A stretch of 64,000 nt of DNA. Source: Carnobacterium divergens DSM 20623 (GTDB lineage Bacteria; Bacillota; Bacilli; Lactobacillales; Carnobacteriaceae). Below the pieces are notes generated by a model that made no database searches, was not told the DNA's origin, and saw only the letters and a program-made list of their open reading frames with translations. A program made the translations under genes and the position numbers. Below are positions 49,581 through 61,867 of the stretch, one piece after another. The stretch spans positions 1,488,001 through 1,552,000 of the forward strand of contig NZ_JQLO01000001.1 in NCBI RefSeq assembly GCF_000744255.1, written 5' to 3'. Each line of letters opens with the position of its first letter. Positions within the stretch are counted from its first letter, which is position 1.

Positions 49581-52500
49581 TTAATCGACTGATTTTAAGG
49601 CTTCAATCATATCAATCTGTTTTAATTTCAAATGCATTGCCCACATCACAATTCCAGAGAATAGGAATGTTAAAGCTGCCGAATAGACGTAGCTTAACAC
49701 TTTTATGGTTGGGCTAAACATCATCATATCAACTTCTGCGGTTTGTAGCACAAATCCATGAAGGAAGATACCTAAAAAGGATCCTGTCACAATTCCCATC
49801 ATGGTTAAGATAATGTTTTCGCGATAGATATACATCGTAACTTCCCCATCGTAAAACCCGAGAACTTTGATTGTTGAAAGTTCTCTAATTCGTTCTGAGA
49901 CATTGATATTGGTTAAATTATATAACACAATAAAAGCAAGTGCTGCCGCAGAGATAATCAATACCAGAGTCACAATATTTAAGCTGGACATGGTGTCTTT
50001 AAAGGAGCTGCCCACACGGTCAACAAAGGTTACTCGTGCGACACTTCCATTCTCCGTTAATCGAGTGCCAAATTGATCTTCCCATTTTTGATTTGCTTTA
50101 TAATTTAATAGTTGAGTATTATAGGGAGGTTCTTTTTTAAAGAGTTTCTGATAATAAGTGGGACTAATATAAATCATATGGCCTGCATAATTTTCAGTAA
50201 TTCCTGTAACCTTCAAGGAATATGTTTTATTGTTTGTATCCTTGATAGAAAGTTTGTCGCCTACTTTTAAATCAAATAATTTTGCAAGTTTTTCAGTAAT
50301 CACGCCACCCTGCTTAGAAATTTCTTCTTTGGCTTTTGTTTTACGATTATTCAAAAGGACGAACTGATCGAAATTTGTTGTTTTTTCTGGAGTAAACAGC
50401 GTCACTTCTTGTGTATTGACTCCTTGTTTTTCCATTTTAAAATTTTCTTGATTAACTGCTAATTGATGTTTAATTTCTTTAGTGTCTGTAATTAACTGAT
50501 TGTATTTTTCTTTATCTGCTTGTTTAGCATCTGGATTAAAAGCAACAATTGCTTGGTATTTCATAATTTTACCGTACTGTAATCCTGCAATATCCGCAAT
50601 TGAATCCTTTAAACCAAATCCAGTTAAAATTAAAGCCGTACAACCTGCCACACCTAAAACCGTCATCAGCATTCGTTGTTTGTATCGAAATAAATTTCGA
50701 GCGGTTACTTTTTCAATAAAATTAAAACGATCCCAAAGAAAGGTTATGCGCTCTAACAAAATTCTCTTGCCATTTTTAGGTGCTTTAGGACGCATTAAAG
50801 CTGCAGGGTTGCTCATTAATTCAACTCTGGTGGCGATTAAAGCAGGCAATACCGTACAAAATAGTGCAACTACTAACGACAGAATTCCGTAGCTTAGATA
50901 ATAGGTAATTCGAATAGCCGGTAAGTTATAAAGGGCCCCATACGCATTAAAAATAATTGTTGGAAAGAGTTGATAACCAATAAACAATCCAATCAAACTC
51001 GCGCTACCACTTGCTAATAAGGCATAAATCAGGAATTTTTTAGAAATATCAAAACTTGTATAGCCTAGTGCCTTTAACGTTCCAATTTGAAGTCGTTGCT
51101 CCTCAACCATTCGAGTCATCGTCGTTAAACTCACTAAGGCAGCAATCAAAAAGAAAAAGACTGGAAAGACTTGTGCAATGGCTGAAATTCGATTGGCATT
51201 ATCACTAAATTCTTCGTAGCCAGGATTTGAAGTCCGATCCATCACAAAATATTCAGGTTTTTTTAACGTAGTTAACTGCTCTTTTGCTTCTGCTAACTCT
51301 TGTTCGCCTTTGGCTATTTCAGCTTCTCCTTGTTGTTTTTTTTGATCAAATTCAGCTTTAGCTGACTCGTATTCTTTATTTCCTTCATCTAGTTGATTTC
51401 TTACCTCGGCTAATTTTTTTTCACCCGTCGCTTTTTCAGAAGCTAATTTTTGTTGACCTTCTGATAAAGCCCTTCTTCCAGCGTCAAGTTGTGTTTTTCC
51501 ATTAAGAAGAGCCGTTTCTCCATTCGCTAATTCTGTCGCTTTTTGATTTAACGCAGACTCTGCTTGGTCTAATTCTGTTTGACTAGCGCTTAATTTTACT
51601 TCTATTGTATCAAGAGAGAACGTCACCTCTTGAGCTGATACTGCACCTGCAAAGTAGGCAGCAATTAGTTCTCCCAACTGTTTATCTACTTGTGTACTAC
51701 TAGTGATTAAAGTAGTTTTGGTTGCTTCTGGAACTAAGGCAATGGGTACTTTTAAACTGTCTCGGATAGATGTGACAAGGTTCTGACCTTGATTGATGCT
51801 TTCAATCGCCGTTGCTTTTTTCGTTGCTAATTCTTGTTGGGCAGCCGCAAGCTGTTTTTTCCCTTCATTTAATTGAGTTTCATTTGCTTCAAGCTCTGCT
51901 TGACTTGAAGTAAGCTTTGCTTGATTTTCAGTTAGCGTTGCTTCGCCTTTTGCTATCTCAGACTGAAACGTTTCTAGTCCTGTTTGATAGTCTGACTCCC
52001 CGCTAACTAGCTTTGCTTTTGCTTCATCAAGTTGTTTTTGACCATCTGCTAATTGTTGTTTTGCTTCTGTGATTTTAGTGGTTCCATCAGTTATTTTTTC
52101 TGCGCCAGTTTGTTTAAGTTCTGCTAGTCTTTCTTCAGGACGTTGGTTAATTTTCTTTTCAACAGCTTTGATTTCATTGTCAATCTGATCTTCATATTCT
52201 TTAGAATAAGCCGCTAATTTTTTGGTAGTATCAAAGGTCAAATAAGCTTCTGTATAAAGATCCGATTTAAAGTCTGATTCTGGAATAACAGCAAAAGCAT
52301 CTGCTGTTCCTTTCCCAATCGTACTACTACCTCGTTGAAAAGTTTCAATATATTGAGGACTGTTTACAAACCCGACAACTTGATAGTCAACCGTCTTAAA
52401 GACACTATTTAAATTGGTTTTATCTCCTTCTGAAGTCAAACTGACCTTGTCGCCAATTTTAAACGTCTGCTGCATTTTTTCAGTATAATCTAATGCTATT

Positions 52501-52886
52501 TCACCTTTTTTTACTGGTAAACGGCCTTTCATTACTCGGTAATCATTCATTGTCGTTTTTTCTGGTAAGGACATCACCTTCGTCACGATTCCTGTGTTTC
52601 CTAAAAAGACATCTTGGCTGTAGCCTCCTGCTACCTCTGCACCTTTTATACTTTTGAGTAAGGTTAAATCCTCATTATTCAACCCATAGGTAGAAACAAC
52701 TTTGACATCCATTAGATTTTTTTCTTTAAAATAATGGTCCGCAGTATCGATCATATTCGGTCCTGTAGCCTTGATACCTGAAAAGAAACCAACGCCAAGC
52801 GTTATGATGGCAAAAATAGATAAAAAACGCGCCTTTGTATGCCATATTTCACGAAAAATATCTTTTAGAAGTGCTGTTTTTTTCAT
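49581..52886 (-). CDS. Large FtsX-like ABC transporter permease with coiled-coil ectodomain
   Basis: 1101 residues. N-terminal membrane segment (about 20-42), a large extracytoplasmic part with a Gln/Ala/Lys/Glu-rich coiled coil (about 230-540), then two FtsX modules: RLQIGTLKALGYTSFDISKKF and RELSTIKVLGFYDGEVTMYIY are the typical FtsX loops. Eight membrane segments in total with MacB-like topology. It follows the ATPase gene by 15 bases. Such exporters are often peptide or lipid translocators; substrate not determined. Confidence 0.85.
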   Translation of the reverse strand: MKKTALLKDIFREIWHTKARFLSIFAIITLGVGFFSGIKATGPNMIDTADHYFKEKNLMDVKVVSTYGLNNEDLTLLKSIKGAEVAGGYSQDVFLGNTGIVTKVMSLPEKTTMNDYRVMKGRLPVKKGEIALDYTEKMQQTFKIGDKVSLTSEGDKTNLNSVFKTVDYQVVGFVNSPQYIETFQRGSSTIGKGTADAFAVIPESDFKSDLYTEAYLTFDTTKKLAAYSKEYEDQIDNEIKAVEKKINQRPEERLAELKQTGAEKITDGTTKITEAKQQLADGQKQLDEAKAKLVSGESDYQTGLETFQSEIAKGEATLTENQAKLTSSQAELEANETQLNEGKKQLAAAQQELATKKATAIESINQGQNLVTSIRDSLKVPIALVPEATKTTLITSSTQVDKQLGELIAAYFAGAVSAQEVTFSLDTIEVKLSASQTELDQAESALNQKATELANGETALLNGKTQLDAGRRALSEGQQKLASEKATGEKKLAEVRNQLDEGNKEYESAKAEFDQKKQQGEAEIAKGEQELAEAKEQLTTLKKPEYFVMDRTSNPGYEEFSDNANRISAIAQVFPVFFFLIAALVSLTTMTRMVEEQRLQIGTLKALGYTSFDISKKFLIYALLASGSASLIGLFIGYQLFPTIIFNAYGALYNLPAIRITYYLSYGILSLVVALFCTVLPALIATRVELMSNPAALMRPKAPKNGKRILLERITFLWDRFNFIEKVTARNLFRYKQRMLMTVLGVAGCTALILTGFGLKDSIADIAGLQYGKIMKYQAIVAFNPDAKQADKEKYNQLITDTKEIKHQLAVNQENFKMEKQGVNTQEVTLFTPEKTTNFDQFVLLNNRKTKAKEEISKQGGVITEKLAKLFDLKVGDKLSIKDTNNKTYSLKVTGITENYAGHMIYISPTYYQKLFKKEPPYNTQLLNYKANQKWEDQFGTRLTENGSVARVTFVDRVGSSFKDTMSSLNIVTLVLIISAAALAFIVLYNLTNINVSERIRELSTIKVLGFYDGEVTMYIYRENIILTMMGIVTGSFLGIFLHGFVLQTAEVDMMMFSPTIKVLSYVYSAALTFLFSGIVMWAMHLKLKQIDMIEALKSVD

Positions 52887-52901
52887 CTTCTCACTGCCCT
52901 T

Positions 52902-53603
52902 CTACCATTCAATGTCTGCAACAGACACTGGATTTTCGTTAATTTTGACACTTCGAACTTTCGCATTATTGATTTCAATCACTCGATCTGCCATTGGAGC
53001 AATTGCAGAATTATGCGTAATCACAATGACGGTTGTTCCTGTGTTGATACAGGTATCTTGTAAGAGCTTTAATACCTGTTTCCCCGTTTCATAATCCAAG
53101 GCTCCTGTTGGCTCATCACAGAGCAATAATTTAGGTTGCTTAGCTAATGCTCTAGCAATCGCAACACGTTGTTGTTCGCCTCCCGAAAGTTGAGCTGGAA
53201 AATTATTTAACCGTTCCCCTAAACCGACTTGTTGCAAAACTTCCGTTGCATCCATTGCACGAGGAGAAATTTGACTTGCCAATTCAACATTCTCTTTGGT
53301 CGTTAAATTAGGGACTAAATTATAAAATTGAAATACAAAACCTATTTCATTTCGACGATAAGTCGTTAGCTGCTTTTTAGTAAAGGTGGCAATGTCGACA
53401 TTATCAACGAATACTTGTCCTTCATCTGCGCTATCCATTCCACCAAGAATATTCAATACAGTTGATTTCCCAGCACCACTTGGTCCTAAAATAACGGCAA
53501 ACTCGCCTTTTTCAATTTCAAAATTAATGCCATCATTTGCGGTAATGACACTGTCCCCCATTTGATAACGTTTATATTCATCTTTCATTTTCACAAAAGC
53601 CAT
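52902..53603 (-). CDS. ABC transporter ATPase, MacB/LolD-type
   Basis: 233-residue ATPase. Walker [11 protein letters not shown]-loop [12 protein letters not shown], signature [15 protein letters not shown], Walker [13 protein letters not shown] and switch [15 protein letters not shown] are all intact. First gene of a two-gene exporter operon with the FtsX-like permease. It makes a useful contrast with the motif-less ATPase at 58482. Confidence 0.94.
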
Positions 53604-57701: not shown

Positions 57702-58457
57702 ATGTCATTGATTGAACGAGCCTTTTTAAGTATTCAACATCGTCCTCTTAAAAATAGCCTCCTTTTTTTAGTCTATGCTGGCATCGCTTGCGCTTTTTAT
57801 GTTCTCTTTTCTATCCAAAATAAACTGAGCAATTCCCTAAATTATTTAAATGATGCTTTAAGTTTCAATCAAAAAAATCAGATTACAACTACGCCATCTT
57901 TCAAAGTACTAGTCTCAACTATTACTCAACAAAAGCAAACACTGAATCACTACTTGTTACTAATAGCTATCGTATCTATCATTTTACTACTTTTACTTCA
58001 CTCTTTCTTTTTATACCAACGAAAGAAAGAATTGCAAAATTTTATATTAATTGGAGAAAAGAAAAAAAAGGTTTTTACACAGATTATATTAGAAAATGGA
58101 ATTATTTTAAATGTTGCGTTGTTAAGTTTGATGATTCTCTTAAGCTTCTTTGCCCGTCCGATTACAAATCAGATTCAACAACTTGAATTGAATTTGATTC
58201 ATAGCGATCAGGTAGCTATGACTGCTAAGCAACAGAAATCTCAAATAAGTGATGAGCCTAACCAATCTGATAGCGAAATCAATGTAACTCGATTTAATAC
58301 GGTTTTACCGATTGTTAATTCCGAAGAAAATTTTACCGTTAATTTTGCGACTACTGTCCAAAATTACTTAGGTTTTGTTTTATTAATTAATGCTTTTATT
58401 GCAAGTAGTTTAATTTTACCAGCTTTATATTTTGTTCAAAAAAGCCACTCATTTTAG
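57702..58457 (+). CDS. Small FtsX-like membrane protein
   Basis: 251 residues. Four predicted membrane segments (about 18-37, 82-104, 128-150, 222-245) in FtsX order. The cytoplasmic loop RKKELQNFILIGEKKKKVFTQIILEN between the second and third segments is the FtsX coupling motif. The first ectodomain is only about 40 residues, far smaller than usual, and the second about 70. Start chosen at 57702 (GAAAGGAG). Paired with a degenerate ATPase-like gene 24 bases downstream. Confidence 0.7.
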   Translation: MSLIERAFLSIQHRPLKNSLLFLVYAGIACAFYVLFSIQNKLSNSLNYLNDALSFNQKNQITTTPSFKVLVSTITQQKQTLNHYLLLIAIVSIILLLLLHSFFLYQRKKELQNFILIGEKKKKVFTQIILENGIILNVALLSLMILLSFFARPITNQIQQLELNLIHSDQVAMTAKQQKSQISDEPNQSDSEINVTRFNTVLPIVNSEENFTVNFATTVQNYLGFVLLINAFIASSLILPALYFVQKSHSF

Positions 58458-58481
58458 TTACTTTTCAAAGGAGGTTTTACA

Positions 58482-59051
58482 ATGGCAACTGACTGCTCTC
58501 AACTCCCTCATAGTGTTCTTAATCCTTTCAAACAGAACGGTATTTATCAAATAAGTACACCCTCACAATCCATTTCTACACTACCTAAAAACCTTATAAC
58601 TTATTTAAAAAAACAAAAAATTCCTGTTGGTTATATTTTAACGGATTCGACCTTTATTCCTTATTTATCAACTTTTCAAAATATCAAATTAAGTTTAAAA
58701 TTAGCAAAACCTAAATTAAGAAATAGTGATTTTTTAATTCTGGATGCTTTAGAAGAAATGAACATTTCCTATAAATTAGCTCATAAACCAATTCAAGAGT
58801 TAACCGCAACTCAATTAAAAGAGGTGCAACTTATTTCAGCTATTTTCAGTGGCAAAAAAATAATTATCGTTGATTCTTGGATCGAGTTTTTATCAGAAAC
58901 TGAGCAATTAAATTGGTTACTTATTTTTAAAAATTTTGTTAAGGACCGAGGCGTCACTTTTATTTTACTAACCAATTCTAATAAAATTGCTGAACAAAGT
59001 GATGACACGTTTCATGAGAAAGATTTTCATCTAAATTCTTTCGATAACTAA
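58482..59051 (+). CDS. Degenerate ABC-ATPase-like protein lacking catalytic motifs
   Basis: 189 residues that follow a LolD/MacB ATPase but without its active site. The Walker A region reads TPSQSISTL (no Lys), the Q-loop reads VGYILTD, the signature is ELTATQ instead of LSGGQ, Walker B is IIIVDSW (Asp131, no Glu), and the switch is LLTNSN (no His). The intervening strands and helices align well (ILDALEEMNISYKLAHKPIQ). AAAGGAGG precedes the ATG. Cotranscribed with the FtsX-like gene, it may be a nucleotide-independent partner. Function unknown. Confidence 0.65.
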   Translation: MATDCSQLPHSVLNPFKQNGIYQISTPSQSISTLPKNLITYLKKQKIPVGYILTDSTFIPYLSTFQNIKLSLKLAKPKLRNSDFLILDALEEMNISYKLAHKPIQELTATQLKEVQLISAIFSGKKIIIVDSWIEFLSETEQLNWLLIFKNFVKDRGVTFILLTNSNKIAEQSDDTFHEKDFHLNSFDN

Positions 59052-59053
59052 AT

Positions 59054-59100
59054 AAAGAGTGATAAAAACCAATTTGATTTTTATCACTCTTTATTTTTTT
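59054..59100 (+). terminator. Terminator after the FtsX-like/degenerate ATPase pair
   Basis: A perfect 15-base stem (AAAGAGTGATAAAAA) with a nine-base loop, followed by T-rich sequence on the plus strand. It also lies at the end of the convergent GyrI-like gene. Confidence 0.9.
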
Positions 59101-59579
59101 TAAAATTGCACTTTATCTGCAACAGGAATCCACACTGAAAATTCAACTGCTGAATCTTGAATAAAGTCATCAACAACTTCTACATTAAAATTACCATTGA
59201 TTTGAAACTCTGCTGATTGATAAACTTCTCCGTAAGAGGCACCAATAAATTGATCTGCTTCTATACGATTTTTGACTGTTGTTTTAAAAATGGCATACGA
59301 TCCAGTAGGTACGGTAAAACTTTCTTGATTTGGACCTTTAGAACTAGCTTTAACTCCAACTAAGTAGTTGGGGTCTCCTGAGCTTGCATTATTAACAGCA
59401 TAGAAATGAGTATCAAGTGCGTATTCCATTAATTGTGCTTTATCTTTTTTTAACACTTCAAGTTGCTGCAATTTCTTATCGCTCATAGCAGGAAACTCAC
59501 TTGGATTGCTTGGCACAACAATCGGAGTGGAGAATCCAATAATAAGTTGATCTGGAGATTCAATAATTGTAAATGGCAT
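59100..59579 (-). CDS. GyrI-like / AraC effector-binding domain protein
   Basis: 159-residue single-domain protein: MPFTIIESPDQLIIGFSTPIVVP, DPNYLVGVKASS, YAIFKTTVKN and VEFSVWIPVADKV fit the SOUL/GyrI-like fold used to bind small hydrophobic molecules. There is no DNA-binding domain. ATG follows AAGGAGCG. A role in drug or metabolite binding is inferred from the fold only. Confidence 0.75.
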   Translation of the reverse strand: MPFTIIESPDQLIIGFSTPIVVPSNPSEFPAMSDKKLQQLEVLKKDKAQLMEYALDTHFYAVNNASSGDPNYLVGVKASSKGPNQESFTVPTGSYAIFKTTVKNRIEADQFIGASYGEVYQSAEFQINGNFNVEVVDDFIQDSAVEFSVWIPVADKVQF

Positions 59580-59702: not shown

Positions 59703-59739
59703 AGCAAAAAGGATGAGAATTTTATTTCTCATCCTTTTT
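59703..59739 (-). terminator. Terminator after the two-component system
   Basis: AAAAAGGATGAGAA pairs with TTCTCATCCTTTTT at the histidine kinase stop codon, with A/T flanks. Confidence 0.8.
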
Positions 59740-61145
59740 TAGTCATTTGTTTCAATTGGAAATGCAAGTTTAAAAGTTGTTCCAGAACCTTTTTCACTCG
59801 TTACCGTCACTTTAGCTTGATGTAAATTCATCAATTGTTGGACAATTGCCAAACCTAATCCAGATTCACCATATTTGGTATTTTTCCTGGAGACATCTGC
59901 TTTGTAATACCGTTCCCAAATATTTTCAACTTCTTCTGCAGTCATTCCAATTCCAGTATCTTGGATTTCAATAATGGTTTCAGTTAAAGTTTTGGAACCA
60001 TTGATAACAATACTGCCATCAGTTGTAAATTGGATTGCATTTTGAAGAATATTTACAATAATTTGAACGAATCGGTCGTAGTCAGCATATACTGTCAAAT
60101 CTGCTGGACAATTTAATTCTAATTGATTTCCAGCATCGTTCGCCTTATTCTTTAACTGCTCTACGATTACAGTCAAAGCTTCTTCTGCATTGAAGGTTTG
60201 TTTTGTTAAACTAATTTGGTTTGAACGAATTTTTTCATAATCCAGATTTTCATTTACTAGACGGATCAGTCTTCTCGTTTCATTTTGCATCAGCTGAATA
60301 CTACGTTTTTTCTGATTTTCTGGAATCATATCGTATTCTAATCCTTCTAATAAGCCATTAATCGTTGTTAAAGGTGTTCGCATCTCATGCGCTGCGTCTG
60401 CCATAAATTGACGTCTCCGATTCTCCTGACGCTCAATTTCTTCATGAGAAGCTTTTAGAGAACGCGCCATTCCATTAAAATCTTCTGCCAAATCATCAAA
60501 TTCATCACGATCTTTATTTTCTAAATAAACATCAAAATCTCCTTGGGAAATACGATGAGTTGCCTTTCGCATTCGGTTGATTCGATTGACTTGATATTTT
60601 GCCAAAAAGAAACTTAAGAACATCGCTCCAATACTGGAAAGTAATAAAGCAATAAATAAGTTATGCTTTAAGTCCTTGATACTGGATTCGACACCACTTA
60701 CTGGTGCTTCAACCGCTACTACACCAGCAAATTTTCCTGTATCACGTTTAAAGAATGGTTGAAAAACCCTAATCTGTTCGACTTTATTTCCTAAAAAATC
60801 AGTATTGTTAATTGAAGAGGCAATCTGGTTTCCTGCTTGCAATGCCTTCCAATCTTTTTCAGAAATATTTAAAGAATAATTTTGTTCTTGTTTAGGGGCA
60901 ATCATTTCTTTTTCTTCATTAAAAATAGACATATTGACATTTTGGCTTTTTAAAACGACTTGAATTAAATCCACTTGGTTAATCAAGCCATCATCGATTA
61001 CGGATTGTGCGTAGCCATATAATTGTTTTTCAGTATTTTTATAGACTGTACTACTAGCAAAATTTGAAAACGAAATGCCAATAATGACTAAAATGGTCAA
61101 AATTACTGCAAAAAATGCCAACATTTGTTGATAAAGGTATTTCAA
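59739..61145 (-). CDS. Two-component sensor histidine kinase
   Basis: 468 residues. Membrane segments at about 8-28 and 162-182 flank an extracytoplasmic sensor of 130 residues; then HAMP (about 183-235), the H-box AAHEMRTPLT with His253, and the ATPase with N-box NILQNAIQFT, G1 DTGIGM and G2 GESGLGLAIV. It starts two bases after the response regulator gene. No close named system recognised; the stimulus is unknown. Confidence 0.92.
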   Translation of the reverse strand: MKYLYQQMLAFFAVILTILVIIGISFSNFASSTVYKNTEKQLYGYAQSVIDDGLINQVDLIQVVLKSQNVNMSIFNEEKEMIAPKQEQNYSLNISEKDWKALQAGNQIASSINNTDFLGNKVEQIRVFQPFFKRDTGKFAGVVAVEAPVSGVESSIKDLKHNLFIALLLSSIGAMFLSFFLAKYQVNRINRMRKATHRISQGDFDVYLENKDRDEFDDLAEDFNGMARSLKASHEEIERQENRRRQFMADAAHEMRTPLTTINGLLEGLEYDMIPENQKKRSIQLMQNETRRLIRLVNENLDYEKIRSNQISLTKQTFNAEEALTVIVEQLKNKANDAGNQLELNCPADLTVYADYDRFVQIIVNILQNAIQFTTDGSIVINGSKTLTETIIEIQDTGIGMTAEEVENIWERYYKADVSRKNTKYGESGLGLAIVQQLMNLHQAKVTVTSEKGSGTTFKLAFPIETND

Positions 61146-61147
61146 TA

Positions 61148-61867
61148 CTACTCAACTCCAGTGTCATCAAATTTGTATCCAACACCCCAAACTGTTTGAA
61201 TCACTTGTGGACCTGTTTTTTCAATTTTTTGACGCAACTTTTTAATATGGGCATCAACCGTTCGTTCATCTCCATAGTATTGATAATCCCAAACAATCGT
61301 TAATAGTTGTTCTCTTGAAAAGACTTGTTTAGGATTTTTAGCAAGCGTATATAACAATTCAAATTCTTTTGGTGTGAGTCCTTCAATTGGTTTATGATAC
61401 AAAAAGGCTTCTCTAGTTTTAGTATTAATTTTAAGGTGATCCGTTTCAACTTCAAAATCTGCATTTTTTGCTGAGCTTTCCATACCTTCCTCATGTCCTA
61501 AATCTGCTCGACGATGAAGTGCTTTGATTCGTGCAATTAAGGTTAGCGGGCTAAATGGTTTTGTTACATAATCATCAGCTCCCATTTCTAAACCAATTAC
61601 TTGATCGCTTTCTGAATCTTTAGCAGTCAACATAATAATTGGAACTGTTTTTGAAACTTTTCGAATTTCACGGCAAATTTGAATACCATCCATTGTAGGT
61701 AAATTTAAATCTAAGGTAATAATATCCCAAGCATTAGGTTGTGTCAAAAATGCATCTAAACCTTCTTTTCCATCTTGTTTAAACAGTGCATCCCAATCTT
61801 CTTTTAAGAAAAACATTTCCATCATTTCACAGACAGATTGGTTGTCTTCAATCATTAATATTTTCAT
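61148..61867 (-). CDS. OmpR/PhoB-family response regulator
   Basis: 239 residues. Receiver domain with Glu7/Asp8, phospho-acceptor Asp53 (ITLDLNLP), MLTAKD and KPFSP; the C-terminal winged helix (about 130-235) has LTPKEFELLYTLAKN and RTVDAHIKKLRQKIE. Partner of the adjacent kinase. A minus-strand TATAAT lies about 40 bases upstream of the ATG, without a clear -35. Confidence 0.94.
   Translation of the reverse strand: MKILMIEDNQSVCEMMEMFFLKEDWDALFKQDGKEGLDAFLTQPNAWDIITLDLNLPTMDGIQICREIRKVSKTVPIIMLTAKDSESDQVIGLEMGADDYVTKPFSPLTLIARIKALHRRADLGHEEGMESSAKNADFEVETDHLKINTKTREAFLYHKPIEGLTPKEFELLYTLAKNPKQVFSREQLLTIVWDYQYYGDERTVDAHIKKLRQKIEKTGPQVIQTVWGVGYKFDDTGVE

Follow-up and report, generated by a model that had tools for sequence, protein, structure and literature searches.

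A conserved pair of a short FtsX-like permease and a Walker-less ABC ATPase-like protein in Lactobacillales, possibly an accessory of one lipoteichoic acid synthase

The window analysed here is a stretch of 64,000 nucleotides from Carnobacterium divergens DSM 20623 (contig NZ_JQLO01000001.1, positions 1,488,001 to 1,552,000), in which two genes on the forward strand encode a short FtsX-like permease (57702–58457) and a Walker-less ABC ATPase-like protein, the pseudo-ATPase or pseudo-NBD (58482–59051). As the initial annotation had claimed, both frames are intact and have good ribosome sites, GAAAGGAG preceding the ATG at 57702 and AAAGGAGG that at 58482. The permease comprises 251 aa with four long helices (TM1–TM4), and its match to Pfam FtsX (31.9 bits against a cut-off of 25.5; 1.5e-7) confirms the FtsX type assigned to it in that annotation. 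Pfam FtsX is also matched individually by 21 of 52 permease relatives, while the curated NCBIfam families gave no match among 52 permeases; the permease profile (A6) matches the permease of S. pneumoniae 5xu1, MacB, YbbP and FtsX. In the model of a read-through chain, described below, helices are predicted at residues 15–58, 65–106, 108–117, 121–181 and 207–252. The first two are joined by a turn of six residues, and a folded domain outside the membrane is therefore absent between TM1 and TM2 of the model. The third is the coupling helix between TM2 and TM3 (RKKELQNFILIG, residues 107–118; 58020–58055, forward strand), the predicted contact with the pseudo-ATPase. By its FtsX domain and its modelled TM2–coupling helix–TM3 arrangement, the protein is a type VII permease.

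The second gene encodes a protein of 189 aa, whose relationship to ABC ATPases was established by fold prediction, Foldseek and hhalign. It is matched by models of the DarD export ATPase (8e-11), FtsE (2e-8) and LolD (2e-6), the match starting at about residue 20–50 and being best over residues 20–180, and it scores below every curated ABC ATPase cut-off; the FtsE equivalog gives 34 bits against a cut-off of 264.85, and the protein thus falls outside FtsE as curated. At E<=0.001, no Pfam ABC family was matched by the pseudo-ATPases. Alignment with canonical ATPases by hhalign gave probabilities of 98.7 and 99.2, the latter with E 3e-19, and the best solved relative by profile is BceA (2.3e-13), in an alignment that begins past the Walker A motif of BceA. 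AlphaFold predicts for the protein alone (mean pLDDT 84.8, pTM 0.80) an ABC fold lacking much of its N-terminal part, and all 50 best Foldseek matches in the PDB are or contain ABC ATPases, including MJ0796, LolD, YtrE, BceA and MacB, the best being 1f3o (2.8e-9; listed TM about 0.6 by query length). The possibility of a fold unlike that of an ABC ATPase, which would have spoken against the initial annotation, is accordingly not borne out by the prediction.

By fold and descent, then, the protein is an ABC ATPase; the functional motifs of such an enzyme (Walker A, LSGGQ, the Walker B glutamate and the histidine switch) are lacking in it and, as a set, in 84 relatives. The four degenerate motifs lie on the forward strand exactly where they had been reported: TPSQSISTL (58557–58583), which occupies the Walker A position or adjoins it, with no P-loop; ELTATQ (58797–58814), a dead ABC signature; VDSW (58869–58880), a dead Walker B without the catalytic glutamate; and LLTNSN (58965–58982), a switch region without histidine. 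The initial annotation had also described the whole sequence as colinear with an ABC ATPase. The match to that family stands, while the colinearity is partial: the protein has 189 aa against about 228 in the nearest canonical ATPases, its N-terminal region is partly missing, and, of the profile alignments, one puts TPSQSISTL where the Walker A segment should be and others show that segment deleted, the P-loop being absent either way.

The pair is followed by a terminator-like hairpin with a 20-pair stem (59052–59094, no strand assigned), which separates it from a convergent downstream gene; the hairpin scan found this one site with 1.0 expected by chance at the threshold used, so that only the stem length is notable. 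A Cass2/GyrI-like effector-binding protein (59100–59579) stands between the pair and a histidine kinase in the window's genus only (G000, G002). The kinase (59739–61145) and a response regulator (61148–61867) lie outside the pair on the reverse strand (59739–61867), convergent to it. About 4 kb upstream of the pair, on the other strand, the window contains a separate canonical FtsX-type ABC pair (49581–53603), consisting of a 1101-aa permease with long coiled coils and a 233-aa ATPase with intact Walker motifs. A PADLOC search gave no anti-phage system match.

The distribution of the pair was followed at several taxonomic depths, with HMM and score thresholds for membership chosen by the analyst. 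A search of 59 relatives' genomes for close homologues of both proteins found them adjacent to each other within the window's genus, in a second genus (six genomes, including G003) and in a third. In a scan of 296 genomes from the order Lactobacillales, the permease profile revealed short permeases (open frames of about 235–310 aa) in five family-level groups (f1, f2, f6, f8, f9), whereas among 399 genomes of the class it found no short permease above threshold outside the order, the distant matches there being frames of about 450–550 aa. Gene order was compared in 120 regions, 40 fetched by the permease and 80, with species names, via the conserved neighbouring response regulator, the latter being biased toward loci close to that regulator. 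The permease is accompanied by an adjacent Walker-less protein in 84 of these regions and stands alone in 23; neither was in range in 12, and the ATPase-like protein occurs without a permease once, at the edge of its sequence stretch. The pair occurs, for example, in Enterococcus moraviensis, E. caccae, E. ureasiticus, E. plantarum, E. mundtii, E. durans, E. lactis, E. casseliflavus, E. cecorum and E. dispar, a Tetragenococcus, Atopococcus tabaci and Carnobacterium jeotgali. By its LtaS, the record labelled Enterococcus faecalis 13-SD-W-01 (L195, L128) clusters with E. thailandicus and E. lactis, apart from the E. faecalis-like species, and the label seems doubtful. Both genes stand together with intact frames in 84 relatives, and none of the adjacent partners of the short permease in the 120 regions carries a Walker A motif, which would have pointed to a local loss; the training set of the pseudo-ATPase profile left out members with this motif, and the gene-order tables show none of them adjoining a short permease.

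Across the 84 pseudo-ATPases aligned with canonical ATPases, the Walker A lysine is kept in five, the Q-loop glutamine and the signature glycines are lost, the D-loop aspartate survives in two and the switch histidine in 10. The loss is incomplete at one position, where an acidic Walker B-like residue (D or E) persists in 64 of 84 relatives, with mostly aspartate in place of the catalytic glutamate. What is retained lies elsewhere. A stretch following the Q-loop, P-Y/F-L-S/T-x-x-x-N, is the most conserved part of the family (P in 75, Y/F in 81, L in 82 and N in 67 of 84), and is represented in the window by IPYLSTFQN (58656–58682, forward strand); the signature leucine (74/84) and the switch threonine (69/84) are also kept. 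This post-Q-loop stretch belongs to the face of ABC ATPases that receives the coupling helix.

Purifying selection acts on both genes. For the window genome compared with G002 of the same genus, simple Nei–Gojobori values of dN/dS are 0.149 for the permease (dS about 1.2) and 0.153 for the pseudo-ATPase (dS about 0.9), and those in the second genus are 0.166 and 0.151, respectively; among the neighbours, the kinase, the regulator and an FAD enzyme are constrained more tightly (0.016–0.038) and the GyrI-like protein more loosely (0.25). Local pseudogene decay is ruled out by the family-wide pair, the dN/dS of about 0.15 and the 84 relatives, and the view of the initial annotation that this is not random decay is upheld for a conserved paired family that spans five or more family-level groups within Lactobacillales. 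A slower process, in which a former transporter sheds its parts and is kept without function, could be read from the stepwise reduction of the system: catalysis was lost at the base, the ATPase-like subunit four times within Enterococcus, and a remnant ORF survives in E. innesii. We nevertheless regard such a relic as the least probable of the alternatives weighed here, given the dN/dS values in two genera, the intact frames in 84 relatives of five family-level groups, the conserved docking surface, and the persistence of the permease after its partner is lost.

The two genes share one reading frame with a TAG between them, and a read-through chain with the natural 9-residue linker was modelled in place of the complex. 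The joined permease and pseudo-NBD reached a pLDDT of 84.7 and a pTM of 0.81; the high pTM would imply a defined relative placement of the two parts and is supportive only, as the tether can help and the error matrix is not shown. Searched with the joined model, Foldseek matched the NBD half only and nothing that covers the whole complex; the joined-model alignment was anchored by ten relatives that read through in frame. The permeases themselves carry a further record of the contact. The coupling-helix loop has exactly 37 residues in 84 of 84 permeases with a partner and a median of 30 in the 23 without, among most of which it is lost, shortened or altered; Gly118 is present in 81/84 with and 2/23 without a partner, and position 110 is Asp or Glu in 82/84 of the former as against Glu in 3/23 of the latter. 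On a tree of LtaS, the pseudo-ATPase was lost at least four times in Enterococcus: in the E. avium group, in E. italicus/sulfureus, in E. aquimarinus/alcedinis and in E. innesii. E. aquimarinus/alcedinis, an older loss clade, partly retained the loop; the trend linking loop and partner loss never reverses, and gives a median p of 0.5 in a sign test, four events being too few for significance on the tree. In the E. avium group (L163, L174, L181 and others), the short permease persists without an NBD and with a shortened coupling-helix loop. The E. cecorum group (L164, L180, L193) has an unusually short pseudo-ATPase of 134 aa, possibly an intermediate toward loss. Together, the model, the joint conservation and the joint loss support in silico a pseudo-NBD docked on the TM2/TM3 coupling helix.

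A complex of this kind should have no means of pumping, since the Walker A motif, signature, Walker B glutamate and switch histidine needed for an ATP cycle are gone. In heterodimeric transporters, a degenerate NBD still supplies Walker A or LSGGQ to the active composite site, and many ABC transporters combine one degenerate and one active site in this way. A larger energised complex, in which an active NBD encoded in another operon joins the pseudo-NBD, may be considered on these grounds and appears very improbable: with both Walker A and signature lost across relatives, no ATP site would be expected to form, neither within the complex nor shared with a foreign NBD, and no Walker-positive ATPase accompanies the pair in the gene-order tables. 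A heterodimer with an active NBD was rejected on the same loss of signature and Walker A. The motif loss throughout the family also favours the scaffold-like role over the energised one among the options that the initial annotation had named.

The gene order points to an enzyme outside the pair. Of 107 permease loci overall, 98 are directly preceded by an LtaS gene of the same orientation, as are 35 of the 40 loci fetched by the permease itself, the gaps being mostly 30–200 nt; in G015 (L135, 8073–9218), a GGDEF-like (diguanylate cyclase-type) gene lies between LtaS and the permease. The window's own genome has three sulfatase-family genes, and one and the same paralogue (L220) is the best match of the neighbouring LtaS in 99 of 99 cases (59–62% in the examples listed), the other never being so. 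Its type is that of a true LtaS, matching Listeria LtaS (4uoo, 8e-152) far better than the LTA primase (4uop, 3e-50). The same-strand neighbourhood found across relatives is not seen in the window's own genome or in G001, where LtaS is not adjacent to the pair; the counterpart in the window's genome lies far off at 468.5 kb, and the link to LtaS was for this reason invisible in the window. A role in division or in the antimicrobial-peptide response, as the initial annotation had suggested, is not supported; the genomic evidence of an upstream same-strand LtaS in most genomes favours lipoteichoic acid (LTA) synthesis. In Enterococcus faecalis, EF1264 is an LTA synthase (PMC10952268), and from the gene numbers and the gene order of related species, the members of the pair in this organism would be EF1262 and EF1263, between EF1260/EF1261 and EF1264.

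The two-component system nearby suggests another partner, and the pair might work with the convergent kinase and regulator as BceAB does with BceRS, in sensing envelope stress, LtaS being a regulated target or a mere neighbour. In 29 of the 40 permease-fetched loci, a histidine kinase is encoded no more than 3 kb away. In E. faecalis, EF1260/EF1261, encoded near EF1264, has a part in polymyxin resistance (PMC7701990) and reacts to antibiotics that act on the cell wall (PMC6506618), and BceA is the best PDB match of the pseudo-ATPase profile. However, the kinase is on the opposite strand and convergent in 29 of 29 loci, whereas LtaS shares the strand of the pair, and group f8 mostly retains LtaS, permease and pseudo-ATPase without a nearby two-component system; the window's genus shows the reverse, with the kinase retained and the pair apart from its LtaS. 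The kinase (Pfam HisKA, HAMP and HATPase_c) has an extracellular part in addition to HAMP, unlike BceS, and the permease has four TM helices rather than 10. A BceAB-type module was rejected because of the four long helices against 10 TM, the opposite strand of the two-component system and the HAMP-type kinase, and the sensor reading at large is considered unlikely. A link to the E. faecium two-component system ChtRS was sought and not established.

Alternatively, the pair could be an ATP-free lipid channel or flippase supplying LtaS with LTA precursors (glycolipid or phosphatidylglycerol). In LolCDE (PMC8333309) and YbbAP (PMC12646458), the FtsX-type permease acts on lipids or lipoproteins, and the enzyme encoded next to the pair uses lipid substrates, but no energy source is apparent, and we consider this role quite improbable.

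We conclude with high confidence that the pair is a conserved dead type VII ABC complex, and its functional tie to LtaS is probable from the gene order. On balance, we favour an ATP-independent, type VII-derived two-subunit complex that serves most likely as an accessory of one specific LtaS; that it works as a scaffold or regulator of LtaS is, from the same gene order, about as likely as not. In such a mechanism, the permease would probably dimerise as in the type VII (MacB/FtsX-type) fold, each copy carrying a pseudo-NBD on its TM2/TM3 coupling helix. The extracellular helical stalks or the TM helices of the permease may bind LtaS and determine where it lies, how stable it is or how processively it works, while the pseudo-NBD may cap and stabilise the permease on the cytoplasmic side and might dock intracellular partners. 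Enzyme-bound type VII ABC complexes have precedents in YbbAP-TesA, with its extracytoplasmic enzyme (PMC12646458), and in FtsEX with hydrolases (PMC10694151). The loss of the pseudo-ATPase in four Enterococcus lineages, where it is evidently not needed, counts against the accessory reading, as does the separation of the pair from LtaS in the window's genome and in G001.

As to origin, the nearest canonical relatives of both subunits share one operon, which encodes a permease of about 500 aa and a Walker-positive ATPase of 228 aa (for example G000:C1, 368.7–370.0 kb, and G039:C1, 125.8–127.0 kb), and the pair thus looks like a transporter stripped of its extracellular domain and its ATP chemistry, both of which we infer to have been lost before these families diverged. 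It is a tentative proposal, to which we give somewhat less than even weight, that these proteins form a wholly ATP-independent ABC-derived class with a dedicated LTA synthase partner in Enterococcus, Vagococcus-like bacteria, Carnobacterium and relatives, exerting passive control over a polymer synthase and having lost first catalysis and the extracellular domain, and then, repeatedly, the NBD and the coupling helix. What remains of an ABC transporter once ATP use has been given up is the docking surface and little else. In agreement with the initial annotation, the system appears to be undescribed, as the libraries searched hold no curated family, and the open-licence literature no paper on EF1262/EF1263 or comparable Walker-less ABC proteins. 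LTA synthesis is a target for antibiotics. Should the pair control LtaS, two unnamed Enterococcus genes would give experimental access to LTA and to tolerance of cationic antimicrobials.

Several known systems resemble the pair in part. FtsEX likewise combines a four-TM FtsX-type permease with a separate subunit of ABC ATPase fold and regulates an envelope enzyme outside the membrane, as is proposed for the pair, but FtsE has ATPase activity, FtsX carries a folded domain outside the membrane between TM1 and TM2, and the partners are peptidoglycan hydrolases instead of the proposed LtaS. YbbAP-TesA (PMC12646458) joins a type VII ABC complex to an extracytoplasmic enzyme acting on lipid-like substrates, as the pair may do, and differs in its 10-TM YbbP with large periplasmic domains and its ATP-binding YbbA. 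BceAB provides, in BceA, the closest solved ATPase by profile, and both systems occur near envelope-stress two-component systems; BceAB, however, has an active ATPase, a 10-TM BceB and an intramembrane-sensing kinase. Heterodimers with degenerate sites, such as BmrCD, TM287/288 and TAP, share with the pair catalytically impaired NBD sites, but retain at least one working composite site, whereas the pair, judged from its sequences, would form none. The MacB-like pairs of Lactobacillales (about 500 aa and 228 aa), encoded in one operon, are the nearest sequence relatives of both subunits, and unlike the short pair they have kept intact Walker motifs and a large extracellular permease domain.
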